Shown piece by piece: positions 4,223 to 30,752 of a stretch of 36,872 bases of DNA (positions are counted from its first letter, which is position 1; the number at the start of each line of letters is the position of its first letter). The notes under the pieces were generated by a model, which made no database searches, was not told where the DNA came from, and saw nothing but the letters and a program-made list of their open reading frames with translations. The DNA is from a virus. The stretch lies in IMG/VR virus record IMGVR_UViG_3300010885_081063, positions 1 to 36,872 of that record. One strand, written 5' to 3'. Made by a program: the position numbers and the translations under genes.

Positions 4223-5038
4223 ATGAGCAAGAGCGCGTTTATTTTGGACCCACTTTGGATCACTAAAGGTAACTATTTTGATTCGGAGTATTTTAACTAT
4301 GTTTTACTAGATGCAAGCATGAAATATAGATCCGAAATTGAAAATGATAATATTGACAGATTTTACGAGGTATTGTTTCATGCACTAAACTTAAATAACT
4401 TAGCAGTAGACGGAAACCTCTTTACTGCTAAATTTAAAGAGATTTGGAATAATCCACGAGTAAACACGATAAAAGAGGACCTAAAACAAATTTACGAAAT
4501 TCCTCAAGAAACAGCAGAGGTCTTTAAAAACGCAAATTTTATCTTTTTGAGTTTGCTGATAGACTACATGAAGATTCAAATGGATATTTTAGATAGCGTG
4601 AAACTTTTTTACATGAATCAAACAATACATCGAGAAAAGGATATTTTCATCTTAACTAACCGTGATGGAGCATCTACTTATAAAATTTGGAAACTTAGCG
4701 AGGATCCAAAACAGAATTTTGGCTATTCCTTTTCAAAGATTAGAACAATAGAATTGCCAAACATTGAAGCAAACACATTAAACGTAGAATTACAAAAAAT
4801 AGATGATCCTAAATTAGCAGGTATATCTGGTAGAAAGAATCTCTGCTTTGCAGTTATTGAAGAAAAAGAAGACGACAATAAGGTCGCAAAAGCAGTAAAA
4901 GATCTTATTCTCCTGAATAAAGGTATCTCAAAAACTACTAGCTTTGAGCCAATGATGGTGCCTGAACTCTATGAACATGTGTGGATAGAGAAGATAATGC
5001 CATTTACACTATCTCAGTGGGCAGATATCAAGGGTTAA
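4223..5038 (+). CDS. hypothetical protein, lone plus-strand gene in the late block
   Basis: A 271-aa protein I do not recognise. It is rich in aromatic and charged residues, with a helical stretch (about residues 95-130, NANFIFLSLLIDYMKIQMDI) that is amphipathic rather than membrane-spanning, then a more beta-like middle and a C-terminal EHVWIEKIMPFTLSQW. It is the only plus-strand gene within about 25 kb of minus-strand structural genes, has its own AATAAATAA motif 19 bases upstream, and its stop codon overlaps the stop of the 1412-aa fibre gene (bases 5035-5038). Context suggests a virion or assembly protein, for instance a chaperone for the fibre, but nothing in the sequence proves it. Confidence 0.78.
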   Translation: MSKSAFILDPLWITKGNYFDSEYFNYVLLDASMKYRSEIENDNIDRFYEVLFHALNLNNLAVDGNLFTAKFKEIWNNPRVNTIKEDLKQIYEIPQETAEVFKNANFIFLSLLIDYMKIQMDILDSVKLFYMNQTIHREKDIFILTNRDGASTYKIWKLSEDPKQNFGYSFSKIRTIELPNIEANTLNVELQKIDDPKLAGISGRKNLCFAVIEEKEDDNKVAKAVKDLILLNKGISKTTSFEPMMVPELYEHVWIEKIMPFTLSQWADIKG

Positions 5039-8000
5039 TTTCCAGCAAAAATAATGTAGTTCATAACAATATACGGTTGCATAATATTATGTGCAGCTCC
5101 GAATAAACCATCTGAGGTACCGTCTCCAGTATTTCCAGTATGGGTGTGAGCACCAGTACCGTTAGTTATCTGTGTAGTGGCTACACCATTATTTGTCGCA
5201 GTACTTCCACCGTTTCCAATATTTGCTTGGTTCGGCCAGTTCACATACAGGTGTGTATGATTTCCTGAAGTCAAAGATGAACTGTCTGGGCCATTACCTA
5301 TTACGTGCTGATGTGGAGGAAGCTCTGCTTTAATCAAAGTATGCTCTATTTCTCCACCTAAGAATCCTATTTGATCTGTTGCAGGTTGATCAAAATTGGA
5401 TCCAACTGGCACTCTAGATCTAAGGTTAGGCACTCTAAAATTAGAACCGATTGCTCCATATGTTTGGCCTAAAGTATCATATAACGCAGAGTATTCAGTT
5501 TGCGAATATGAATTACCGTCACAAAGCAACCAGCCTTTCGGTACTGTCCATGTGCGTCTTACTTCTTTAACGCTTATTGAATTGATAGTATACGTAGAGA
5601 AAGCATTTGCTTCAATGCTTATTGTGTCTGAATTAAAGGAATTAACCTGAATGTAAAATGTATAAACTCCAGCTGAATAAAAGGAAGGTCCATATGCAGA
5701 GCCTGAGATACCTCCACTTCCACCAAGAGAAATTTGTACTTGTCCTGAAGTACAACTTAAAATATCTAGAGTTACTTGATATGTAGTATATGAAGATATA
5801 CCCGATCCGGTTTGTATCAACTCACGGTTTGTTGCCGTACAACTTACTGAATTTGCAGAATGCAACCATCCATCATTCGGTAAAGAATTACCCAGACTAG
5901 TTAACCAGTTTGCTGCACTTCCTGTAAATCCGCCATTTTGAGTAATTTCAGGACCAAGCGCAAGTCCTGCAGAAATAGGTTCAACTGTCACGTCATCTAT
6001 TCTTCCATTAAAACTATTATTATCAGGTTCAAAGAAAATTTCATCGTCGGTATCCGTAAAATATAGGATAACACTTTTTGTTCCATTAGAAGAAAAATAT
6101 TGTGATATTGTAGATCCGCTACCTAATCCTAATCCTACTCTAACTGCTCCTAAAGTAATGCTAGATAGTGAAAATGTAATTTTATAAAAAGTGCCACTTT
6201 GTAAACCTAGTCCAGATTGATATATTGGAGTAGTCAACGCTCCTCCGTGCTGCACATACCCAGTCGCACTACTATAATTCCAACCACTAGTAGAACCATA
6301 ATCTTTTATAGTAGCTCCTCCGAAAACTAACCAGTTATTTACTACAAGACCGGTTCCGTCAGATGCGTTTGCAGTAAAATTTCCATTAGTAACAATATTT
6401 GAGCCGGTTATAATATTTCCACCGGTTGCTCCTGCCCAAGGTGTGACTGCACCTACTGGAACAGCTCCCATTCCTGTGATAAGTCCGCTTACTCCTAGAT
6501 TTTCACCAACTAGCGTATTTCCACCTACACTTAAACTTGAATTTAACGTAGTATTTCCACCAACTGAAAGGTCTTGACCTATTTTCACACTTTCTGAACG
6601 TAGCGATTCAATATGTGCAGTTCCTGTATAGATACCATCGATGTCTAGAGTAACTAGTCCGGTGTTATCTGCTTGGTCATGAGTTACGGTATAGATATGT
6701 TTTCCAATAATTTCAAATCTGCTATAAAAATAGCTTGATGTATCTGACGTTGGAAGAGGTGTACGATATATTTGAGTTAGTGCTGGCACACTTGTATTTG
6801 TTGCACTCTGTATTGAAACGTCAGCTTTAAAAATATAGGTAGTTATATCTCCAGCAGAAGGCGGAGCTGACGTATACCCTTCAGCTAGTACATATACGCT
6901 ATTACCATATTGCTTTATATCAAGCGACTGCTTTGTACTCGATAATACCCCTGCAGGATATGTTAATTGTAGAGTTTGTCTAACAACATATTGGTTTTTA
7001 CAATACGGTGGTGTATTCGTCTTTGGAGTAGCAGTATTTAAACTGATAATTTTTATTGCATCTCCATAGGCTACATAGATATACTTGTCATTTGCTGCAA
7101 TTGCACCTCTTTTTAAGATTGAGCTATATGATCCGCCGGTTGTAGCTAAAATATTTGTGCTTTCTCCTATCCATGTGATAGTCGGTGCCGATCCATTTAA
7201 TTGGCGTAAATCATATGCTTCTACGAATACTCTAACTTTTTGCGTAGCAGAGGTTAATTGCAAAGTTAATGTGTACAATGTATCACCTACTACTGTCATG
7301 TCTAAAATAGACGCGGAATTATAGACAGTTGCCGATGCACCATCTGTTAAATTGCTAGAAACGCTAGCAACAATTACCGGATCAGTAGGATCAGTAACAT
7401 CAATTGCGGTGATTCCTCCAGTGTAATTAAGTAGTCCAGAGAAAGAACTGCTTGGCGCATGCAAACAGTTTGTTGCAACAAGTGCGTAATTTCCATTTAA
7501 TTTGATTCGGTATGCAGATGTTAATTCGTCCGGATTTGTTCCAACTGACTGTGATCCAGTAGTTGCATTTAGTCCTAATCTAGATACTCTCTCTAATCCA
7601 AATGAGTTTACGTTTTTGGAGTTAATCTTTAAAATTTGAAAATATGTTCCCTCATAATACGGTAATACTGCATTTTGAGAACTAGTATCATCTAAGTTTT
7701 GAGTATGAACAGTATACATGTAATCTCCAGCAACAGCGACGTCTGACGCGCCAGTTCCAACCGGTTCTGCTTTGCCATAGTAAGAAGTTAAAGTACATGC
7801 AGGAGCAGAACCGGTTTTTTCAGTATATCCTCTAAACCTACCGTAAAAATTACTCCATTGCGCAATCGGATGATTTGGATTTTCGATAGAATATCTTTCG
7901 AAATATCCATAATTTGTAATTAAATTGCTAACGTCTGGATCTCCAGAAACAACATACACTTCATTACCACGATGAACTATTCCAGCGTGGCCTTTAAATG

Positions 8001-9273
8001 TTGCTGGCGAGCTATTTGATGTAATTGCATTAGGCTTTTGTGAAGGTTCAGACATTCCAAGTTGGATAATATTTCCTCTATTTTGTAGAGTAGTATCATT
8101 TAAGTAAATGCCATCCGTTAATCCTCCAACATCTAACATTAGGTACGAATTAGCCGCAGTATCTGAAACATATCCAGTGTATGTTGGAAATGAATAGTTA
8201 GTGTTAGACGTTCCAATTCTAAATTGCATTGCTAGGCCTGTACTAGCTGAGCTAGCGCCTTGTACATACAAGGAACCGTCTACGTTTATCGTACCGTTAT
8301 TTCCTACAATGTGATCGAGGCCATATTTAGATCCAAGGTAAACCGACACGTTTCCATTAATTGAAGTTCCTTTTTTTGGAGCACAAAATTCAAATACTGA
8401 ATTTAGATTTCGGTATACGGATGGTGAACTTCCTGGAGGATCCATCGTGAACTGAGCAGTATTATAGGAATTTACACCATTCTCAATTCTAAAAAATCTA
8501 AGTTTAAAATTCTCAAAGACAGTAGTAAGAGTTAATCCGTTGGATGGATCATTGTATAAACTACCAAGCTCAATATGGCTTCTTCCATTGATTTCAGAAA
8601 GAGGAAGCTGGTGATCTAGATAGATTGAAAGCAGGGAATTGAAAAAATATTCAGTATCGCCTGTTCCAGGAGTAGGAGTAGGTCCATTATTTGATGGAGC
8701 ATTTGGAAAACCTGACCAAATAGCTGGATCATTTAATTTATCTTCGTTAAAGTTAGTTAAAAATAGAGTATCATTATTTGCAGGATTGCCTAGGGCACCT
8801 AGTGAAATATCATCTGAGATGTCAGAAGTAGTTTCTCCTCTTCTTGCAAAAACAATAAATCTATCGTCGTTTGGTGAGCCAAGTCCAAATCCTCTAACAA
8901 ATGGAAGAGGAGAACTTGCAAGGTAATTATTGATGATTGAGGTAAGGTCAAAAACAAAAGTCCACTGTGCACCATCATATTGCCATACTGAAAAAGTTAC
9001 AGTATTTAAGTATAGATCTCCATCGAGAAGGTCAGGTATTGTTAATGTGTTTGGATCTGCAACTGTGTCTAGATACCATGTAGCTCCTCGAACACCTTCT
9101 AATCCTTGGATACCGATCGGTCCTGCTGCACCCTGAATACCGGCAAATCCCTGAATACCTTGTTCGCCTATACCTAACTCCAGAAGCTTATTGAAGTTAA
9201 AATTTACCTTGTCTACTGTTATCTCTTGTGAGTCTGCAGGAAAGACCTCCTTTAGATTTATTCTTACTGGCAT
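5035..9273 (-). CDS. tail fibre with collagen-like, propeller-like, CBM-like and tail-collar parts
   Basis: A 1412-aa probable receptor-binding fibre. Residues 1-35 are a short attachment region (KVNFNFNKLLELG, common at the head of phage fibres). Residues 36-63 are nine collagen-type Gly-X-Y triplets. A Pro/Thr linker (PTPTPG) lies near 200. About 425-880 carry repeated strand units such as GNEVYVVSG, GDYMYTVHT, GDTLYTLTL, NDKYIYVAYG, GNSVYVLAEG and GKHIYTVTHD, suggesting a beta-propeller of LVIVD type. About 885-935 is a repeating SVGGN trimer-stem sequence. The phage tail collar domain opens at PWAG (945-948), is interrupted by two CBM-like modules (953-1101 and 1107-1239), and resumes at VPKGWLLCDG (1244-1253). 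The end has three HxH motifs (1321, 1339, 1376), as in the iron-binding tip of T4 gp37, and the typical QPYIVMNYIIFAG tail. The gene follows its upstream neighbour by 2 bases. Confidence 0.9.
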   Translation of the reverse strand: MPVRINLKEVFPADSQEITVDKVNFNFNKLLELGIGEQGIQGFAGIQGAAGPIGIQGLEGVRGATWYLDTVADPNTLTIPDLLDGDLYLNTVTFSVWQYDGAQWTFVFDLTSIINNYLASSPLPFVRGFGLGSPNDDRFIVFARRGETTSDISDDISLGALGNPANNDTLFLTNFNEDKLNDPAIWSGFPNAPSNNGPTPTPGTGDTEYFFNSLLSIYLDHQLPLSEINGRSHIELGSLYNDPSNGLTLTTVFENFKLRFFRIENGVNSYNTAQFTMDPPGSSPSVYRNLNSVFEFCAPKKGTSINGNVSVYLGSKYGLDHIVGNNGTINVDGSLYVQGASSASTGLAMQFRIGTSNTNYSFPTYTGYVSDTAANSYLMLDVGGLTDGIYLNDTTLQNRGNIIQLGMSEPSQKPNAITSNSSPATFKGHAGIVHRGNEVYVVSGDPDVSNLITNYGYFERYSIENPNHPIAQWSNFYGRFRGYTEKTGSAPACTLTSYYGKAEPVGTGASDVAVAGDYMYTVHTQNLDDTSSQNAVLPYYEGTYFQILKINSKNVNSFGLERVSRLGLNATTGSQSVGTNPDELTSAYRIKLNGNYALVATNCLHAPSSSFSGLLNYTGGITAIDVTDPTDPVIVASVSSNLTDGASATVYNSASILDMTVVGDTLYTLTLQLTSATQKVRVFVEAYDLRQLNGSAPTITWIGESTNILATTGGSYSSILKRGAIAANDKYIYVAYGDAIKIISLNTATPKTNTPPYCKNQYVVRQTLQLTYPAGVLSSTKQSLDIKQYGNSVYVLAEGYTSAPPSAGDITTYIFKADVSIQSATNTSVPALTQIYRTPLPTSDTSSYFYSRFEIIGKHIYTVTHDQADNTGLVTLDIDGIYTGTAHIESLRSESVKIGQDLSVGGNTTLNSSLSVGGNTLVGENLGVSGLITGMGAVPVGAVTPWAGATGGNIITGSNIVTNGNFTANASDGTGLVVNNWLVFGGATIKDYGSTSGWNYSSATGYVQHGGALTTPIYQSGLGLQSGTFYKITFSLSSITLGAVRVGLGLGSGSTISQYFSSNGTKSVILYFTDTDDEIFFEPDNNSFNGRIDDVTVEPISAGLALGPEITQNGGFTGSAANWLTSLGNSLPNDGWLHSANSVSCTATNRELIQTGSGISSYTTYQVTLDILSCTSGQVQISLGGSGGISGSAYGPSFYSAGVYTFYIQVNSFNSDTISIEANAFSTYTINSISVKEVRRTWTVPKGWLLCDGNSYSQTEYSALYDTLGQTYGAIGSNFRVPNLRSRVPVGSNFDQPATDQIGFLGGEIEHTLIKAELPPHQHVIGNGPDSSSLTSGNHTHLYVNWPNQANIGNGGSTATNNGVATTQITNGTGAHTHTGNTGDGTSDGLFGAAHNIMQPYIVMNYIIFAGN
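5557..5955 (-). other. CBM-like module B inserted in the fibre's collar domain
   Basis: Residues about 1107-1239 start with ITQNGGFTGSAANWL and end with INSISVKEV. The N-G-x-F start, the following W and the final strand pattern resemble carbohydrate-binding jellyroll modules (CBM_4_9 type). The module parallels module A (ELIQTGSGISSYTTY against PIYQSGLGLQSGTFY), suggesting an old tandem duplication. Confidence 0.5.
5971..6417 (-). other. CBM-like module A inserted in the fibre's collar domain
   Basis: Residues about 953-1101 start with NIVTNGNFTAN and end with GRIDDVTVEPI, the opening and closing patterns of CBM_4_9-like jellyrolls. It sits exactly where the canonical collar domain has a loop of only a few residues between P-x-A-G and P-x-G-W-L-L-C. 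Confidence 0.5.
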
Positions 9274-9275
9274 CT

Positions 9276-12200
9276 TTAGATGAAGTTAATTTTTATCTTT
9301 GGACTAATACTTAAACCTGCATCAACTGGTTTTTGAATGCTAAAGCGAAGGATCAATCTGTCTGTTTTATTTATTTTAACAGATCTCAACAGGGAATATC
9401 CCTGAATAAAGCGCTGTTTGTCGTTTAGGAATACAAATTCTACTGTATTTGAATTTTTTACTTTTTCGCTAGAAACAAGTTCAGCGTTTCTTTTTGTATA
9501 AAATTCTACAGTGTCGATATTATACAATTTTAAGATATTTAATCGGATATATTCTTTTACATAACTTTGAATAGTATCGAAGTTTCCAATATATTCATTT
9601 GAATTTATAAGATACTCATTAAATTTTTGTTCAATTCCATCATTTATTAAGTACGATGAGATTACATTATTTACGTTAATATAGCCATCGACTGTTTTTT
9701 GAGTCTCCTTTATTACTATTTCTACCTGAGTTAAGTCAACGTCTTCTAATTTTTGTGTACCAGTTAGGGTAAGAGTCTTATAATTTTCAAGCTCAATGAC
9801 TGGAGGAATGATTACGATCTTTCCTAGGAAATTTTCGTCTTCTTCTACTCGTAGTGAACCTGCAACCGGTGAATAATTTGATTTGTCTGAATACTTATGG
9901 TGGAAGCCCCAATCCCAGTTGCTAGAAAGAAGAAAATAATCAGCTTTTCCGATTGCAATTTCATCAATTGTAGGATATACTGGCAAATATGCAGCATCTG
10001 ATTCTAGATCTAGAATTTTAGTGTCAGCCACCTTAATATGGCTAAAATTACGAAGAACTAGAGCTTCAAGAATATGTGAATTTAATTTTGTGTTGCTTAA
10101 TGAAAGATCGTTAATTTTATTCTTTATAAACTTGAAATTAGAACGACAGTTTAAAAGATCGTTTGCTATCGGTTCGTATTCTCCTTTATATCGATTTAAG
10201 AAGATAGAATTATTTAGAGCTGCTTGCTCATATGTATATGAAATTACTGATTTGAATGCATACTGAGTAGGTCGATCATCATCAATATTTGTAATAGTTT
10301 GAGTTAACTTTTCAACTTGTGCTTGATCTGGAACTTCTAAGTAATAGTTAGGAGTAGTAGTAGCTACCGGATTGCCCGTTGAATCGAGTGAATATGATTC
10401 ATATTCAATAAACGGATCTAGCTCATTGATATATTTCTTAAACTTAGCAAAAGATAATTTTTCTATTAGTTTTTCAAAATATTGTTCTCCACCGAACGTA
10501 AGATAGAAAGAATAATCCTTTTCAATTGCATTTATAAATACTGGAGCCAATGGAATTGTTGTAAAAACAGAAGTATATGGGAAAATTGATAAACTTACCA
10601 TTTCACTTAAATACTGTTTTGTTGAAAGTAAAATAGCTTCGGTACTTGCACCAAGTACTGGACTAACATTTAGTGGGTTAAGAGTAGATGCATCGTATTG
10701 GTCGATAATGTATTCTTTTCCATTGCTGCTATGTAATATCAAGAAAGTTTTTTCGCTTGGAAGTATAATTTCATCTGATAGAATAGATGGATATGGTTTT
10801 GTGTTCTCGAGTCTAGCAACGTTGTTGTTATTTACATTAAATCCAGAAAAAGTAAGATTAATCTTTGAAGTAACTTTTGCGTTTGAAAAATTACTAAGTA
10901 GTGAATTAAACTTTTTGTGCTTTAATGAATAGAGAAGAGTATGTGTTAGATTTGATACGCCATTATCAAATACTACTCTATAATCTCCGTCTACTGTTTG
11001 ATAAACATTTTTAGGAGGAAAAAGTGTAGGATCTGCAAAATACGCCTCATTACTTGATGGAGCTGTATTGTTTGTTATCTTTTCAATCGTATTCTTAACG
11101 TACCAATCCTGATCGATTTGAGTTAAACTTCCAAGAGCAACCTCAATTACGACAAGAATAAACTTGAAATCAGAGTGGTCGATCACTCTATATCGAATAG
11201 GTGATTGGTCACGGTCGATTAAGTTTTCTTCTACTGGTTTTAAGATACAACTAAATTTATATCCATCAAATCGTGAAGAATTTGTTTTGGCAACAGGTTT
11301 ACCGTCTGCACCAGAAACAGTAGGATCGGTTACGTCTTTAATACTAACTTTAAATCCTTTGAAGAAAGTTTCATATTGACCTGCTGCATTTTTAAATACT
11401 GTAGAGTATCTAAATTGGGTAGGCGCAATATCGATCTGTTCGCCGTAGGTATTGGTTCCATCTGCAGGAGTATACGTAAAATATTCAATGAAATAGTTAG
11501 GATCGCTGAGTAATTGAGTTATGTCTAATTGCTTATCGAAATAGTAATCATTCTGCTTTATTGTAGTTGGGTCCAATAAATAGTTGAACTTACTTTCAAT
11601 ATAGAACCACTCATGGGTAAAATTATTTGGATTTTGAGTTCTATCAGTATGGTCAGGAGAAAAATTATTTCTACCGAACACAATTTCAGTATTTAGACGA
11701 TATGGATTATCTCGTGAATCAAAACCATCTTTAATTCTCCATTTGGTGATATAAGGAATTATCTTGGACCTTACTGAAAAATCTTTACTATCGTTTTCTT
11801 TATAAAAATCATATTCAGTATTGGTCAATCCATTGATATACTTCGTCTGTAAGTTATAAAGAGTAGTGTTTTCTTGTGGAATAACTTTATTTGGATCTTT
11901 AAGTATTGAGAATCCGTTAAAGTCTTTTAGTTCTTTATTTTCATCATTGATTGGAGTGATTAAGCTACCCCCTAGTAAGTTTGAATCTGGTGCATAAATA
12001 ACGATAGGTTCTCCAGAAACAATTGAATATTTTGATGCTGAAGTAACGGTAAATGTTCCAATAACTGAGGCTAGGCAAATTCCTCCAGGTTCAGCTGGAG
12101 TAGAAACTCCCCAACCTTTATTAATGACTAGAGTAGTTTGACCTGCTCCTGGATAATTTGCAACAACATTTGTAATATTAGCACTGCCATTATATGAGTC

Positions 12201-14801
12201 ATTTGTATATCCAGCATCTTGCGAAACGTAAACTTCATCACCAACAGTCAGTGAAACGAGTAAGCTATTAACTACAAAACCTACGCTTCCTGAGTAAAAA
12301 GCATTATCTATAAATTGAGTAACGTATGGTGATAAATTGTTTTGAGTGTCTGAATATTGAGTTTGTGTAGTTCCGTCGTCGATTGACACAGTTCCATTAA
12401 TTACTTGATATACTTGTCCTGAAACAAGCAGCTCCGCGTTTTCTGGAATAAAATAGTATTGATATAGATCAATCGATGGAAAGTTTGAATATGTGCTATT
12501 GTAGAAATCAAAATCAAGATCCTTGATTGGAAATAGAGAAAGAAGTCCAAACTCAGGCCTAAATTTCTTTCTGATTGCAAACTGTGTGTATGAAATAGTT
12601 GGAGTTTCTGAATCCTCTAATGTCAAAACAATATTTTCATTATATTTGGAAATTGCAGAGACCCTAGTTGATTCTTTTACTCCATTTGTCTCGTTGATTA
12701 AGTCAATATATTTTGAAATTTTCTTAATTTTCGACCACCCTTGCGTTGTCAATATAAGCAAATTATCGAATTCTTGAGTTATCTTACTTAGATGGTTTGC
12801 ATCGATTACAAGACGATTGCCTTGAATTTTTGATCCTCCATGAAAATCAAAAAGTGTTGAAATTAAGCCGGTTCCAGCAACATCATCGATACTAATCGTA
12901 GTATAATCGTTTACTGGTGAAATAAACTCAAATTTATGTAGTGCATCAAAATCTCCAGGCGTATTACAAATAACAAATACATATTCGTCAAATGCATAGG
13001 CGGTAAATGTTTTATTTCGTACGCCATTGATTACTGCAGCTAGAGAACTTGCAATTTGATCAGTACGACCTTCTGTACTAAAATAGAACTCATCAAAGCC
13101 AGTAACATTATCCCAATCGTTATAGATATAGTATTCTCCAGGATTAGGTAAGAGTGAGTAGTCTAATACTCCTGTAAATAGATCATAGTTACCATTAGAA
13201 TCAGATTGAGTCCCGTTGGGGTGATACAATTTGACTTGATCAGCATGGTTAGGATTTGCAAGAATCTTAAATACACCATACGAATATCCTGGTAAGCCAG
13301 CAACAAACCCAGTATCTTGTAAGTAAATGTCCTCGCTCGGTCCAAAGAACTTGCCTAAATTAATTGACGTATTACTTAATCTTATTTTACCAGAACCAAT
13401 ATCCTTTGATACTGAACCTGTCGTTGAATTTGTAGTGGGTGCAACGCTTACTTTATAGGTAAATATGGTATCTGAAACTTTAGTGATAAAATATTCACCA
13501 GAATAGTCAGAATCAATTGCAGAAACTGTGATAAAATCATCAGTTTGAAAATTATGTGGAATAAAAGCGGTTACTGTAATATCTGTGCCTATTGCAGAAA
13601 AGGTAGCTCCTTTTTCTAGAGATAGCGAAATATCATACGGTGAGACAAGCTTAGGCAAATATAATTTGTCGCTCTTATCTGTAATATAATTAAAATACAG
13701 AGTTTCTGAATCAGTAAAAATATTTGTAAATTCAGAAATATTAAATTGCAGATTTTTATATGGAATAATTACTCCATTACTGTTTGATTGTAATAGAGTA
13801 GTATCGTCGCTTTCTTTGTATGTGGTACGAAATCTTGGAGTGTTTTCCCAAGTTTTGCGTTCTGCATATCCTCTTTCGAGGTCAATATCTAATTCAGAAA
13901 GTTCAATAGTATTAAGGTATACTCCTAAATACCGGTTGATCTCATAATTTTGAGATGAATCGTCATTAAAGATAAATTCAAGATTTAAGATGTTTGGAAA
14001 AATAATTCCATTTCTTTCATATCCTTTTGTAACGTTTTCTTCAAAGAATTTTAAAGGAGTGGATTGACGATATTGATCGTATAATAATTCTCCCCTGCTT
14101 CCCAATACTCCAGCATCAACGATCATTCCATTCCATGTAGTATATTCTTCCTCCTCATATGCAACAGTCAGCGGACTAATTGGAAAATTTGGAGAATTCA
14201 AATAAGATCTGATAAATTTTCCAGGCTTAGTATCTTCTCTTAGATCAAACGTTTTGATAATAGTCGCCTTTTTAAATAGGTCAACTAGATAATTTGCTCT
14301 AGGCTGGCCGTTTTCAAAATCTTGTTTTGAAATATCAATTGGCGTATTTAAAGGATCATTAATCTTAAAAATTACAAAGAACCTTGGCAACTCTTTCTTT
14401 AAGTAGAGTGGCGCAAAGTACGATAGTCTTTCTTCATATTTGTTTGATGGAAAATATTTTATTCCACTGAAATAATTTGAGAAATCATACTGATCTTTAA
14501 AATCTTTTGATGTTTTGGTTGTATCTACACCTTCCGATAATCCAAAAATGATTTCATTTGGAGTAGTTCCATTTTTGAAAAACTGATAAATGTTTCCAGG
14601 TAAAGACTGCGTTGTATCAATTGGATATCTAGAATAATCGTCTTTTGCTAATTCAAGATTTGCCTTGATTGCATCTAGCCACATATCTCCAGCCTCGTTG
14701 ATAGTTAACTTTACGTTTCCGGTCAACTTAGGATTAGTTCGAACCAATTGATAACTCGCATCTGCTACGAGTACTTTAGTATATAGAATGTCTTTTGCCA
14801 T
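9276..14801 (-). CDS. very large virion (baseplate or tail-fibre) protein
   Basis: An 1841-aa protein, the longest in the window. The N-terminus (TNPKLTGNVKLTINEAGDMWLDAI, written here in part as TNPKLTGNVKL at about 23-33) is a pattern I recall from giant structural proteins of uncultured large phages, but with no assigned function. Around 407-455 is a unit of the type PHNFQTDDFITVSA...YSGEYFITKVS...FTYKVS, a short beta domain that recurs in phage structural proteins. No transmembrane segments, collagen repeats or enzyme motifs are seen; composition is rich in N, S, T, Y and F as in baseplate and fibre proteins. It lies 2 bases after the stop of the 1186-aa gene and 2 bases before the fibre ATG, so these are translated from one message. 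Inferred role: baseplate periphery or fibre attachment. Confidence 0.82.
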   Translation of the reverse strand: MAKDILYTKVLVADASYQLVRTNPKLTGNVKLTINEAGDMWLDAIKANLELAKDDYSRYPIDTTQSLPGNIYQFFKNGTTPNEIIFGLSEGVDTTKTSKDFKDQYDFSNYFSGIKYFPSNKYEERLSYFAPLYLKKELPRFFVIFKINDPLNTPIDISKQDFENGQPRANYLVDLFKKATIIKTFDLREDTKPGKFIRSYLNSPNFPISPLTVAYEEEEYTTWNGMIVDAGVLGSRGELLYDQYRQSTPLKFFEENVTKGYERNGIIFPNILNLEFIFNDDSSQNYEINRYLGVYLNTIELSELDIDLERGYAERKTWENTPRFRTTYKESDDTTLLQSNSNGVIIPYKNLQFNISEFTNIFTDSETLYFNYITDKSDKLYLPKLVSPYDISLSLEKGATFSAIGTDITVTAFIPHNFQTDDFITVSAIDSDYSGEYFITKVSDTIFTYKVSVAPTTNSTTGSVSKDIGSGKIRLSNTSINLGKFFGPSEDIYLQDTGFVAGLPGYSYGVFKILANPNHADQVKLYHPNGTQSDSNGNYDLFTGVLDYSLLPNPGEYYIYNDWDNVTGFDEFYFSTEGRTDQIASSLAAVINGVRNKTFTAYAFDEYVFVICNTPGDFDALHKFEFISPVNDYTTISIDDVAGTGLISTLFDFHGGSKIQGNRLVIDANHLSKITQEFDNLLILTTQGWSKIKKISKYIDLINETNGVKESTRVSAISKYNENIVLTLEDSETPTISYTQFAIRKKFRPEFGLLSLFPIKDLDFDFYNSTYSNFPSIDLYQYYFIPENAELLVSGQVYQVINGTVSIDDGTTQTQYSDTQNNLSPYVTQFIDNAFYSGSVGFVVNSLLVSLTVGDEVYVSQDAGYTNDSYNGSANITNVVANYPGAGQTTLVINKGWGVSTPAEPGGICLASVIGTFTVTSASKYSIVSGEPIVIYAPDSNLLGGSLITPINDENKELKDFNGFSILKDPNKVIPQENTTLYNLQTKYINGLTNTEYDFYKENDSKDFSVRSKIIPYITKWRIKDGFDSRDNPYRLNTEIVFGRNNFSPDHTDRTQNPNNFTHEWFYIESKFNYLLDPTTIKQNDYYFDKQLDITQLLSDPNYFIEYFTYTPADGTNTYGEQIDIAPTQFRYSTVFKNAAGQYETFFKGFKVSIKDVTDPTVSGADGKPVAKTNSSRFDGYKFSCILKPVEENLIDRDQSPIRYRVIDHSDFKFILVVIEVALGSLTQIDQDWYVKNTIEKITNNTAPSSNEAYFADPTLFPPKNVYQTVDGDYRVVFDNGVSNLTHTLLYSLKHKKFNSLLSNFSNAKVTSKINLTFSGFNVNNNNVARLENTKPYPSILSDEIILPSEKTFLILHSSNGKEYIIDQYDASTLNPLNVSPVLGASTEAILLSTKQYLSEMVSLSIFPYTSVFTTIPLAPVFINAIEKDYSFYLTFGGEQYFEKLIEKLSFAKFKKYINELDPFIEYESYSLDSTGNPVATTTPNYYLEVPDQAQVEKLTQTITNIDDDRPTQYAFKSVISYTYEQAALNNSIFLNRYKGEYEPIANDLLNCRSNFKFIKNKINDLSLSNTKLNSHILEALVLRNFSHIKVADTKILDLESDAAYLPVYPTIDEIAIGKADYFLLSSNWDWGFHHKYSDKSNYSPVAGSLRVEEDENFLGKIVIIPPVIELENYKTLTLTGTQKLEDVDLTQVEIVIKETQKTVDGYINVNNVISSYLINDGIEQKFNEYLINSNEYIGNFDTIQSYVKEYIRLNILKLYNIDTVEFYTKRNAELVSSEKVKNSNTVEFVFLNDKQRFIQGYSLLRSVKINKTDRLILRFSIQKPVDAGLSISPKIKINFI

Positions 14802-14803
14802 TA

Positions 14804-17800
14804 TTAGAATGTAGTAACCGTGCCTTTACTCTGAACTATAGGAGCGTCTAACGATGTTTCTTTAGTATATTGTGCGCTTACTTCAAGGTCAAAAGAAAAA
14901 GGAACATCGTCTTTTACGATAATGTCGATTCCTATTTTCTTTTGATACTTAATGTTGTTTAATGTTTCGTTTGATCGATACCCTCCAATATAACCTAATT
15001 TATCTGAACATCTAAACTGAAATAAAACAGGTATATTAAGTGCATTATCGGCACCGAAACTAATCGCTTTAGTAGATCGTGTAGGGAAATTTCCTTCTAC
15101 TGAAATTGCATTATAATTCAGAGGAAACATGTAAAAATAAGAACCGCATGTATATTTACCAATTAGGTATTCATCGTTTGGCTTAAATCCTAACTTGATT
15201 GGATAGTTGTCTAATGTTTTGCTTAAGTTAGAGGTAGGCGATGTTAAGTTTTTACGAACTGCTTGCTTATAGTATTTTACTCCAAATTTATTTGTGTCTT
15301 CTGCAACCGACGCTTCAAAATGAAGTGCCTGAGCAAAAGGTAAAGTTACCTGTTTTGCAGTTGCATCAATTGTTGGAGGAACAGCCGAAGCAAAGTCTGG
15401 TGCAAATAATGCAGCAAGTGCAGATGCTGAATATGTAAACGATGTTATGCTCTTAAGAGTAGGGTGATCTTTACTAATACAAAACTCAGAAAGATATCCT
15501 CCACCTTGTGGAATAGAAGAAATAATCGCTCCGTTCCAAACCTTAGTATTAGAAGATCCTACTGTTGAATACGTAGGATCATATGGAAGATAATGACCCC
15601 AATCATATGGTATACGCACAGAATTATAGAGCGTTCCCTGATAATTGTATACAGGGGTTGTAACATATTGAGTAGTATCGTTAACTTCAGTATACAACTG
15701 TTCAGAAAGACCATAATTTCTTGCGCGACTATTGATATATTGACTTTTTACTTGGCCTGATTGTTGACTTGGAATCTGCTTAAAGTCTCCAAGAAATGGA
15801 GTTTGATTTTTATTTACTCCAATTGGCACAATATCGTATCGACGATTTACATGATAATCTTTATCTGGATTTGCAATAGGATCAGACTGAGTCATTATCT
15901 CATCTGAGCCTCCAAATAATAATGAAACAAGTTCGAGCTTGGTTGCTGAAGTATTTTGAATAGAAATTGAATATTGCTTTGTAATAATTCTTCCCTCATT
16001 ATACACAGTAGTTCCGCCAGTAGTGTCTTTAATTAGATCACGATAATATCCAGCAAATAGGCTTATCGTATCTCCATTAACGACATCTGTCAAATTTCCA
16101 GAAGGATCGACTATTGAAACTTTAATAACTCCTCTGTCTTGAGTGATTGCCTGTTGTAGACTTTCTATTGTATTTTTAAGAGTAGTGATCTGTTCGAATA
16201 GATCAATTACGCTGCCAGTTGCAGTATAAAATCCGCTGGCAATATCTTGCGCATTATGCGCAAAGAATCTCTCACCAGTTGTAAACTGATTTGCAAGGTG
16301 AGTATCAACTCCTCGTGCAATTAAACTTTTTTCAAAATCTAATCGAGTCTTATCTGCGAATACTTTTTGAGAAACAACTGTTGACTCTTCCTGAGAAGTA
16401 ATATTTTCAGGGAAAGATATTTGTACTAAGTTTGACCAATCTGACACTACTGGATTATCTGGCCAGCCTGCTTCAGAAATAGAGTGTATTTGAAATTCAA
16501 TAACTTCTCCTTTTCTGATTGGGATATCTAGTTGGTTTGTGTTTACTTGATCCGCATCTGAAAGGTTTTCGGTAGTCCACTTATAGAGACCAGTAGTTGT
16601 ATCTAACTCCTTAGTTTTAGGTTTAGTTAAGACTTCTGTCCACGGAGAAAAAGTTGCAGACTTTTTAGTTCCATCAGTATCAGTAAAAGTTTGTTGTTGT
16701 GCATTTGGTTGGTTTCCACTTTGACTTAAGTAGCGATAACGATATTTGAACTGTATTACCTGTTGTGAACCGTACGTTCCGGTTAAAGCAATAGGTACTT
16801 GCCAAAATCCTCGAACTGCATATTTCTTTTGATTAACAAACTGGGGTGTGTTTGAAAGTTGTAAAGTCAAATTAGTAACTAATGTAGAAAGAGTTGTAGT
16901 TTTTTCAGTACGATTCTTTTGTACTTCAGTTAATTGTTTCTGTAAACGTTTTGCTTCTTGTGTAGTTTTAGAAACAGTTGAAATATTTGACTTAATTTCG
17001 TCAATCTTCTTGTTTAACTCTTGGATCTCTTTTTCAGTTGCTGCTTTTTCTTTGATTGTACTATTAATCGTTGCAACATTCTTATCATCTTGAAGGTGTT
17101 GGTCGATTTGAACAACACTAAAATTTGCAGCATCAATTGTTGGAGCAGAAGGAGTAATTCCTAGAATTGCAGGAAGCTTCTTTTCTTTTGCAAAATTCAA
17201 TAGGATTAATCCAAAATCTGAAACAAAATTATTATAGTAACTTGCAAGAGTAGTAGTAGTATTATCTGCAAGAGAAATTGTCAAGTCATTAGTAAAGACA
17301 GCAACACCATTTGAATAATTATCAACGGTTAGATTTTTAGCTTTACTGATAGGTTTAATAAAAATTATTTCGCGCTCATTGAAACCTACATTTACTTGAA
17401 GTTCAGGTATACGGAAAGGTAATGGCATTATTCTTAGGATTGCAGCACCAATTGTAATTGGTTCAATTCCAAAAATTCTTTCTAATACAACTTCAGTATC
17501 TGTTTTATTTACTGAGCGAACAATGTATTCTGAATCATTTTCAGTAATTAAAACATCACCTTCCGCAAGAATCTTTGAATTTTTAGTTCCAGTAAATACA
17601 TCTGTGTAATTTAAAGTGCTTAGTTTATAGCGACGGCGTAAGACTGAAACGCTTTGACCAGAAGTAAGAGTTTGAGTTCCTTCTTCTTCAAGAATTCTCA
17701 ATATATCAAATGTTCCAGTATAACGATTAATTGCAGTAGCTACATCAACTGTATTATCGTCTTCGAAATAATCAATTAGATATGCATCAAGATCTGTTTT

Positions 17801-18364
17801 TAGATCTTCTAGAATAATATCGTTTTTTCCCGAATAATTAGTATCAAAATAGGTTGCAAAATCATCATTATTTACAGCATTGATGATTATTCTTTTTACT
17901 ACAAAACTGTCAATGTCGTCAGTTAGAATGCTACTAATATCTAATGAAACAAAAAGAAGAGGATTTAAAAAAGATTCAAAGAACCAATTGTTTTTTACTC
18001 CAAACGCAGTTGGAATTGTAAACGATGTGTTTTGTATGCTTTCAAGTTCGCTTAATAACTGCGAAGTCTTTTTTAATTCAAACTTACGAACTTCTCCATT
18101 TGCTGATTTAATACCAATAACGTTGCTATTCGTTGAAAGCAAGGTTTCAAATCGAGTATTAATATCTTCGATTTTTCCCTTTAGATAACCGAAAGAAGGA
18201 ACATTAATTGTCGTTGTTGCACCATCACTTCCAGTCTGAGTAACGCTTACATTGTCTGATTTAGACTCAAGAATGTTTTCTAAACTCATTAAAAATGAGT
18301 TCATATTATCGACATCCAGTACAAGTCTTTTTAAAACGTCAGATAGCGTATTTTTTGTTTCCAT
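14804..18364 (-). CDS. large virion protein with coiled coil and FnIII-like domain
   Basis: An 1186-aa protein of the same operon. Residues about 425-500 are a charged heptad-like coiled coil (KEKAATEKEIQELNKKI, then KTTQEAKRLQKQLTEVQ). About 515-655 look like a fibronectin-type-III-like beta sandwich (QFKYRYRYLS, FSPWTEVL, GEVIEFQIHSISEAGW, VSDWSNLVQISFP). A second helical stretch occurs near 720-740. The C-terminal third is beta-rich and unrecognised. No catalytic motif is seen. The ATG at 18364 is 8 bases after the upstream stop and the leader lacks a Shine-Dalgarno. Baseplate or fibre-hinge function is inferred from neighbours; I cannot name a T4 counterpart. Confidence 0.82.
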   Translation of the reverse strand: METKNTLSDVLKRLVLDVDNMNSFLMSLENILESKSDNVSVTQTGSDGATTTINVPSFGYLKGKIEDINTRFETLLSTNSNVIGIKSANGEVRKFELKKTSQLLSELESIQNTSFTIPTAFGVKNNWFFESFLNPLLFVSLDISSILTDDIDSFVVKRIIINAVNNDDFATYFDTNYSGKNDIILEDLKTDLDAYLIDYFEDDNTVDVATAINRYTGTFDILRILEEEGTQTLTSGQSVSVLRRRYKLSTLNYTDVFTGTKNSKILAEGDVLITENDSEYIVRSVNKTDTEVVLERIFGIEPITIGAAILRIMPLPFRIPELQVNVGFNEREIIFIKPISKAKNLTVDNYSNGVAVFTNDLTISLADNTTTTLASYYNNFVSDFGLILLNFAKEKKLPAILGITPSAPTIDAANFSVVQIDQHLQDDKNVATINSTIKEKAATEKEIQELNKKIDEIKSNISTVSKTTQEAKRLQKQLTEVQKNRTEKTTTLSTLVTNLTLQLSNTPQFVNQKKYAVRGFWQVPIALTGTYGSQQVIQFKYRYRYLSQSGNQPNAQQQTFTDTDGTKKSATFSPWTEVLTKPKTKELDTTTGLYKWTTENLSDADQVNTNQLDIPIRKGEVIEFQIHSISEAGWPDNPVVSDWSNLVQISFPENITSQEESTVVSQKVFADKTRLDFEKSLIARGVDTHLANQFTTGERFFAHNAQDIASGFYTATGSVIDLFEQITTLKNTIESLQQAITQDRGVIKVSIVDPSGNLTDVVNGDTISLFAGYYRDLIKDTTGGTTVYNEGRIITKQYSISIQNTSATKLELVSLLFGGSDEIMTQSDPIANPDKDYHVNRRYDIVPIGVNKNQTPFLGDFKQIPSQQSGQVKSQYINSRARNYGLSEQLYTEVNDTTQYVTTPVYNYQGTLYNSVRIPYDWGHYLPYDPTYSTVGSSNTKVWNGAIISSIPQGGGYLSEFCISKDHPTLKSITSFTYSASALAALFAPDFASAVPPTIDATAKQVTLPFAQALHFEASVAEDTNKFGVKYYKQAVRKNLTSPTSNLSKTLDNYPIKLGFKPNDEYLIGKYTCGSYFYMFPLNYNAISVEGNFPTRSTKAISFGADNALNIPVLFQFRCSDKLGYIGGYRSNETLNNIKYQKKIGIDIIVKDDVPFSFDLEVSAQYTKETSLDAPIVQSKGTVTTF

Positions 18365-24611: not shown

Positions 24612-25013
24612 TTAAATGCTATAAATAGAACTTTCTCCGCTCATTCCAAGAGAAATAAACTCCAAGACATCGTCTTTGTCTAACCCTGTCTTTTTATGAA
24701 TCTTTTTCCATTCCTTGGCGTATCCATTTTTGCATATTTGGGTAAAATATGCAAATGCATTTGGATTATCTGTTTTTGTTTCGTCAAAACTCTTCCAATA
24801 CTTCAAACAATCTAGGATTGCAGATTGTATACAGTCTTCCCTGTCTCTAGGATCTTTAAAATAGAGTCGATCTACTGCTCGATTTGCAAGTGAAATAAAA
24901 CAATCGGTTGCAAATCTGCTTAATTCACCAGTTCCTTTACATTTGATTATTGACTCAGTAAAATCTTTATTATTGATATAATGTTTATCGCCACGCTTTT
25001 TTCTAATAGCCAT
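24612..25013 (-). CDS. late-transcription sigma factor, T4 gp55-like
   Basis: A 133-aa protein that matches the core of T4 gp55, the small sigma that directs host RNA polymerase to late promoters. Visible correspondences: HYINNKDFTESII (11-23) with gp55 YVNNKELLQAII, then a helix, and RDREDCIQSAILDCLKYWKSF - DETKTDNPNAFAYFTQICKNG (about 57-97, given in two parts), which parallels the gp55 sigma-2-like region [22 protein letters not shown] (in part). It is shorter than gp55 (185 aa); the long acidic C-terminal tail of gp55 that binds the sliding clamp is reduced here to DKDDVLEFISLGMSGESSIYSI (about 112-133, partly acidic). It follows the resolvase gene by 11 bases. The leader lacks a Shine-Dalgarno. 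Its targets are presumably the TATAAATA-like motifs listed here. Confidence 0.85.
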   Translation of the reverse strand: MAIRKKRGDKHYINNKDFTESIIKCKGTGELSRFATDCFISLANRAVDRLYFKDPRDREDCIQSAILDCLKYWKSFDETKTDNPNAFAYFTQICKNGYAKEWKKIHKKTGLDKDDVLEFISLGMSGESSIYSI

Positions 25014-25024
25014 GTATGGGGTGA

Positions 25025-25687
25025 TTATTTTAGAAGATCATAAATTTTTACGATTCCAAGGTAGGAATCTGTCATGTCAATGATAGGTGACAGAATCTTG
25101 TCACCAGAGATTACCCAACTCTCAGTATGTAAGAGTTTAAATAAATCTGAATTTTTTACTGTTTCGATTATTGGGTCGCTTTTGAATTTAGCTAAGATGT
25201 CAGTTTTGTTGGCGTTTCCTTTACAGGCAATTGCATTTTTAAGTTCGCTAGGGCTAAAGATGAAGAATCGTTCAACGTTGTTGTCTAGAAGTTGAGTAAT
25301 TATTTGATGTTTTAATATTCCAGTAGCTTGAGAAATATCAACTAATGAGTTTCCACTAGAACCAAAAGAGATTCCTTCAAGACAGAAAATAAGATCTTTT
25401 TCATCAGCGATTTCTTCCTTTATTACAGAAATAAGTAAATTAATGATTTCTAAATAGTTAATGAGCTTTATTCTCTCAGTAACATGATATTTATCAGATT
25501 TTTTTCTTTTAGTCTGTGTGCGTAAAATTTTGATATTTGGGTAATTTTGATTGATGTAATCAAAATGATCTTCATCAATCTTACGAACTTTCTGATTAAC
25601 TACCGCTACCCACTTAAACTCTTTAAAATCTCTGCAAATGCAGACTCCAGGATAAAGTATAGAGAAATCAATGCTGACTATCGTCAC
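25025..25687 (-). CDS. RuvC-like Holliday junction resolvase (RNase H fold)
   Basis: A 220-aa protein with the acidic motifs of RuvC-type resolvases: SIDFS (D7) in the first strand, FCLEGISFGSSGNS (E104) after the third, then SQATGILKHQI, a KGNANKTDIL segment (K161, like the RuvC G-x-A-x-K helix) and the closing DMTDSYLGIVKIYDLL (D204, D207), as in RuvC D-x-x-D-A. Such enzymes cut branched DNA; in a T4-like phage this would replace endonuclease VII (gp49) in resolving recombination and packaging intermediates. The frame opens with GTG at 25687; an ATG two bases upstream is out of frame. The gene is followed after 11 bases by the sigma-factor gene, so they form one operon. Distant relatives such as Mg-dependent nucleases of the same fold cannot be excluded. 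Confidence 0.7.
   Translation of the reverse strand: MTIVSIDFSILYPGVCICRDFKEFKWVAVVNQKVRKIDEDHFDYINQNYPNIKILRTQTKRKKSDKYHVTERIKLINYLEIINLLISVIKEEIADEKDLIFCLEGISFGSSGNSLVDISQATGILKHQIITQLLDNNVERFFIFSPSELKNAIACKGNANKTDILAKFKSDPIIETVKNSDLFKLLHTESWVISGDKILSPIIDMTDSYLGIVKIYDLLK

Positions 25688-29096: not shown

Positions 29097-30752
<1,656 letters not shown>

Follow-up and report, generated by a model that had tools for sequence, protein, structure and literature searches.

The stretch of DNA analysed here (the window) comprises positions 1 to 36,872 of a virus record from IMG/VR (IMGVR_UViG_3300010885_081063), and a single open frame on its minus strand (5035..9273) encodes a tail fibre of 1412 amino acids, the N-terminal part of which (residues 1-950) is conserved in 24 syntenic IMG/VR loci. 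Most of the protein is a shaft (residues 1-934; 6472..9273, minus strand) that is common to orthologues with different tips, has weak Pfam matches in the window and contains collagen-like G-x-x repeats (residues 36-63), an LVIVD-like region and VGG-type stem repeats. The collagen-like stretch lies near the fibre N-terminus (9085-9168, minus strand) and scores below the Pfam cut-off, and the LVIVD match, weak in the window fibre, is above the cut-off in one orthologue (L483). After the shaft come, all on the minus strand, the first half of a tail collar domain, PVGAVTPWAG (residues 939-948; 6430..6459), a linker whose sequence is rich in Gly, Ser and Thr (residues 949-958; 6400..6429), the CBM_4_9-like module A, a predicted beta sandwich (residues 959-1099; 5977..6399), the diverged CBM_4_9-like module B (residues 1110-1237; 5563..5946), the second collar half PKGWLLCDG...FRVPNLRSRVPVG (residues 1244-1289; 5407..5544), a head loop with an HxH motif (H1321, H1323) and further HTH motifs (5089..5406), and the closing strand QPYIVMNYIIFAGN (5038..5082), a C-terminal strand conserved in collar-head proteins. 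A gene of 271 amino acids on the plus strand (4223-5038), for which no convincing family was found, is convergent with the fibre gene and overlaps its 3' end by four bases.

The window is a piece of a large phage, probably one of Bacteroidota, because relatives of the large neighbouring gene at 14804-18364 sit in jumbo phages of Flavobacterium, Chryseobacterium, Tenacibaculum, Prevotella (Lak) and Sphingomonas. It also encodes a GroEL chaperonin (29112-30752, plus strand; strong PHROG match, E 9e-160) and, side by side on the minus strand, a late sigma factor-like gene and a RuvC-like resolvase (24612-25013 and 25025-25687).

An earlier note on this DNA had described both parts of the collar motif as intact and separated by about 290 residues, and this was borne out: VGAVTPWAGA (residues 940-949; 6427-6456) and VPKGWLLCDG (residues 1244-1253; 5515-5544) lie in the same open frame, exactly where the note had placed them and ~294 residues apart. 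The Pfam Collar family (PF07484) matches the fibre at residues 1243-1289 (E 4.6e-15; 55.7 bits versus a curated cut-off of 24), but only through profile positions 10-57, and the missing first nine positions are found in PVGAVTPWAG, 294 residues upstream. The window fibre is an interrupted member of PF07484, in which positions 1-57 are not one contiguous stretch. Scored with a matrix of 10 positions built from 90 collar first halves, PVGAVTPWAG reached 24.0 bits, compared to a median of 22.9 for true first halves and 2.4 for the next best site in the whole fibre. Only three sites reached such a score when 1.37 million positions from other frames were examined, and since all three are real collars the false-positive rate is effectively zero. 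The separated motif pair thus lies well outside what chance would produce. When 55 other collars were aligned with MAFFT, the program placed their first halves on residues 939-948 across the gap, unprompted. H1321-Q-H1323 in the head loop aligns with T4 gp12 (1OCY) and with the orthologues, and the loop thus carries an HxH motif of the gp12 type.

The decisive evidence for the insertion came from syntenic orthologues. With the neighbouring gene of 1841 residues (9276-14801) as query we recovered 26 IMG/VR loci. In 24 of them this gene is followed by one that is orthologous to the window fibre shaft, wholly or in its N-terminal part; six of these 24 fibre genes have collar tips, unbroken in every case. 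The earlier note had proposed collecting homologues and looking for unbroken collars, and the four that share gene, shaft and collar with the window (L479, L482, L483 and L484; 42-43% identity over residues 1 to ~950) all have one. Their alignment restarts at window residues 1243-1245 with no extra orthologue domain in between; in the BLAST alignment with L483, window residues 1-949 correspond to 1-964 and 1244-1411 to 966-1155. Three of them (L479, L483 and L484) match Collar positions 1-57 as one stretch, whereas the window matches only 10-57. Since the collar of the orthologues is unbroken at this very position, PWAG and PKGWLLCDG belong to one domain; had PWAG belonged to a separate domain, the earlier note would have been wrong, but the orthologues assign the first half to the collar. 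The points at which the orthologue alignment breaks and resumes fix the insert at residues ~950-1243 (5545-6426, minus strand), slightly offset from the edges first proposed (5557-6445). In the window lineage ~294 residues were inserted between the neighbouring collar residues 949 and 1244. Only a single contig is known to carry the insert, and downstream of it the collar and head are ~40% identical to those of L483 and L484.

The orthologues also differ in the head. The HxH motif is retained in L483 and L484, and the head is absent from L479 and L482, so that three loading states are seen: neither loop (L479, L482), head only (L483, L484), and head together with the insert in the loop between PxAG and PxGW (window). 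In the two headless genes (L479:13610-16675 and L482:13610-16684) the collar runs directly into the closing NYIIYAG strand. Across the wider set (L478-L502) the same shaft carries C1q-like heads, an S74 chaperone tip, collars with or without a head, and other tips, the switch lying near residue 934.

A survey of other collars showed how short this loop usually is. The distance between the halves is 2-18 residues, mostly 3 or 5, in ~208 collars from IMG/VR, and the same range was found in ~120 GTDB collars and at 81 places identified across 148 genomes from a single phylum; none of these roughly 400 collars (IMG/VR, GTDB and the one-phylum genomes) has a domain in the PxAG/PxGW loop. Among GTDB frames that failed the strict first-half motif, most have a diverged version of it right next to the second half, and a few do not represent collars. 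Nearly all of the 81 places match the Collar profile from position 1-3. Two bacterial collars in long frames whose match starts at position 8-9 (L475, L476) were considered as candidates and rejected, as neither contains an insert; both have a degenerate first half, which in L476 is adjacent and in L475 can hardly be made out. Microbacterium phages with long matches to the model were likewise set aside, their collars being unbroken or degenerate and adjacent, as was the long fibre of cyanophage A-1(L) (8KEC), the sequence of which has the first half adjacent. A search for WAG followed nearby by an NGxF module start returned 32 stretches, none with GWxxCDG thereafter, and many of them are part of another type of fibre module, WAG/NGGF.

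The two inserted modules each start with NGxF and end in a strand resembling IDDVTV or INSISV, and they are 30% identical to each other over 89 amino acids (E 2e-5). The earlier note had seen in them two tandem modules resembling CBM_4_9. Searched separately and directly, neither A nor B reached any Pfam family, PF02018 (CBM_4_9) included, and a direct tblastn of the modules against phages gave no match; a profile of phage modules did match both, and the resemblance was upheld to that extent. This profile, made from 46 non-redundant phage modules collected with an independent DNA pattern, detected A with an E value of 2.2e-7 and B with one of 0.038, and a single iteration with 79 modules gave 2e-5 and 0.0011 (all E values for 1000 sequences); per sequence, E is about 2e-10 to 2e-8 for module A and about 4e-5 to 1e-6 for module B. 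The profile matched neither the reversed fibre nor the fibre shaft alone. Among 29 scanned family members, the window segment included, 14 match PF02018 and one matches PF22637 (BppA domain 1, Dit-type), and a relative of module B found by tblastn (L477; E 2e-6) encodes a protein that matches PF02018 just under the cut-off. These matches place module A, and more weakly module B, in a phage CBM_4_9-like family, as judged by profile similarity; the label 'CBM_4_9-like' is appropriate because A and B have no Pfam match of their own. The fibre is collar-tipped, and the Dit core domain or family that would mark an evolved Dit was not found in it. An alignment of modules alone came out stretched across A and B, so that it served only as the sequence set for Pfam, and a mixed alignment of modules and collars was misaligned and was discarded for modelling.

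Structure prediction supported the fold of the modules. We made two AlphaFold2 models of a single chain, one with homologues lacking the first half, which avoids circularity, and one with homologues that contain it. In both, the modules are beta sandwiches, with a pLDDT of about 70-86 in the core of A and lower, more mixed values in B, and Foldseek paired the modelled modules with CBM22 tandems, with carbohydrate-binding tandems such as 4xup, with a surface glycan-binding protein and with a porphyran-binding CBM (8xmz; 2.9 A over 92 columns). As modelled, both modules have the beta-sandwich fold of CBM_4_9. The overall pTM was 0.34-0.35, with collar and head at low confidence in these single-chain models, and including homologues with the first half lifted its pLDDT only from about 30 to roughly 60, with no strand. 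T4 gp12 is an interwoven trimer (PMC3004832), and because a single chain cannot form a trimer of this type, the pairing of the collar halves is beyond the reach of monomer models.

Taken together, we favour the interpretation, with a probability of roughly 0.7, that the fibre ends in a gp12-like collar-head tip whose collar still folds while two CBM_4_9-like modules are displayed from one of its loops and bind polysaccharide. The tandem modules are inserted in frame, in a short surface loop between the conserved collar strands PxGxxxPxAG and PxGWLLCDG, and the collar would most likely still fold from both halves, in a trimer, so that three module pairs (six modules) would stand around it just above the HxH head. 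The loop is likely exposed and tolerant because its natural length varies between 2 and 18 residues. In the CBM_4_9 fold the N- and C-terminal ends are close together, which is why a module pair can hang from one loop. The modules would probably bind surface polysaccharide, which may lend added avidity or give a first foothold before the head meets its receptor, and by analogy with the Dit of phage J-1 such extra binding appears the likeliest role. Weighing against this reading are the poorly resolved collar of the monomer models, the lack of a direct Pfam match for either module and the restriction of the insert to a single contig. The comparison with the orthologues establishes the insertion and its exact site, and the profile matches establish the module family. 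The closed collar fold, the trimeric display, carbohydrate binding and the role in adsorption are what we infer from these data. More tentatively, and at somewhat less than even odds, the collar could be a scaffold on which the head loop and the PxAG/PxGW loop act as two display sockets that phages fill or empty independently; the PxAG/PxGW loop would then be a natural, and new, location where binding modules can be nested.

A reading that accepts the insertion but gives the modules no part in receptor binding, so that they serve instead as structural or spacer elements or as generic decoration, or bind matter other than the host such as mucilage or particles, strikes us as unlikely, even though phage structural proteins often carry CBM-like folds for which binding is unproven, and no host binding was seen for the distal CBM of the neck fibre of A-1(L) (PMC10966104). 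The insert sits at the receptor-binding tip, which has been swapped repeatedly among the orthologues, and a CBM inserted in the Dit of phage J-1 does bind the host surface (PMC9124777). Far less probable is that PVGAVTPWAG is an unused relic upstream of a recombined tip, made of two CBMs, a half collar and a head, in which residues about 1236-1243 supply the first strand. Tip swaps in this fibre family do break close to residue 934 and the first half is not docked in our models, but it scores above the median of functional first halves without decay, and its full motif strength argues that it is still in use; moreover, the downstream collar and head are orthologous to those of L483 and L484 (about 40%), and the collar was therefore not replaced. 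The occurrence of the insert in one contig only would also fit an assembly chimera, a collar gene with the sequence of a CBM protein joined into it. This we regard as the least probable explanation of all, given that the frame is intact through both junctions, that each junction falls exactly in the collar loop, and that the insert comprises whole modules, has a GC content like its neighbourhood and lacks long flanking repeats. No flanking repeats that might hint at the route by which the insert arrived were found.

With the collar-loop display of CBM_4_9-like modules as the preferred reading, the fibre allows a receptor-binding tip to be compared cleanly before and after it took up a domain insertion, the orthologues that naturally lack the insert serving as controls. 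It indicates that whole domains are tolerated by one loop of a fibre domain that is very widespread, and it opens to experiment the idea that filling the PxAG/PxGW loop lets phages gain or tune host binding.

The earlier note had also suggested that this architecture was undescribed. We found none of CBMs nested in a tail collar either, which is weak evidence as it covers open-access papers only, but nested CBMs in a phage Dit have been published, and the claim of novelty narrows to the collar. In the Dit of Lactobacillus phage J-1 two inserted CBMs stand out from the ring, CBM_1 resembling CBM4-2, and host-surface binding was shown for CBM_2 (PMC9124777). In the J-1 Dit as in the window fibre, a core protein of the adhesion device carries two nested CBM-type modules; the two differ in that the host domain is a hexameric Dit in the former and the collar of a (probably) trimeric fibre in the latter, where binding is presumed. 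In T4, the gp12 collar is a single domain (residues 342-397), and the flower motifs of gp10, gp11 and gp12 hold insertions, such as the finger domain of gp11 and the loop between strands 2 and 3 of gp12 (PMC3004832). The profile alignment of the T4 gp12 crystal fragment (1OCY) with the window fibre runs through both collar halves, the HxH head and the closing strand; in gp12 the PxAG/PxGW loop carries no domain, whereas in the window fibre it is loaded. Domain gain through a loop is thus known elsewhere in phage tails, and at the collar site it is apparently new.
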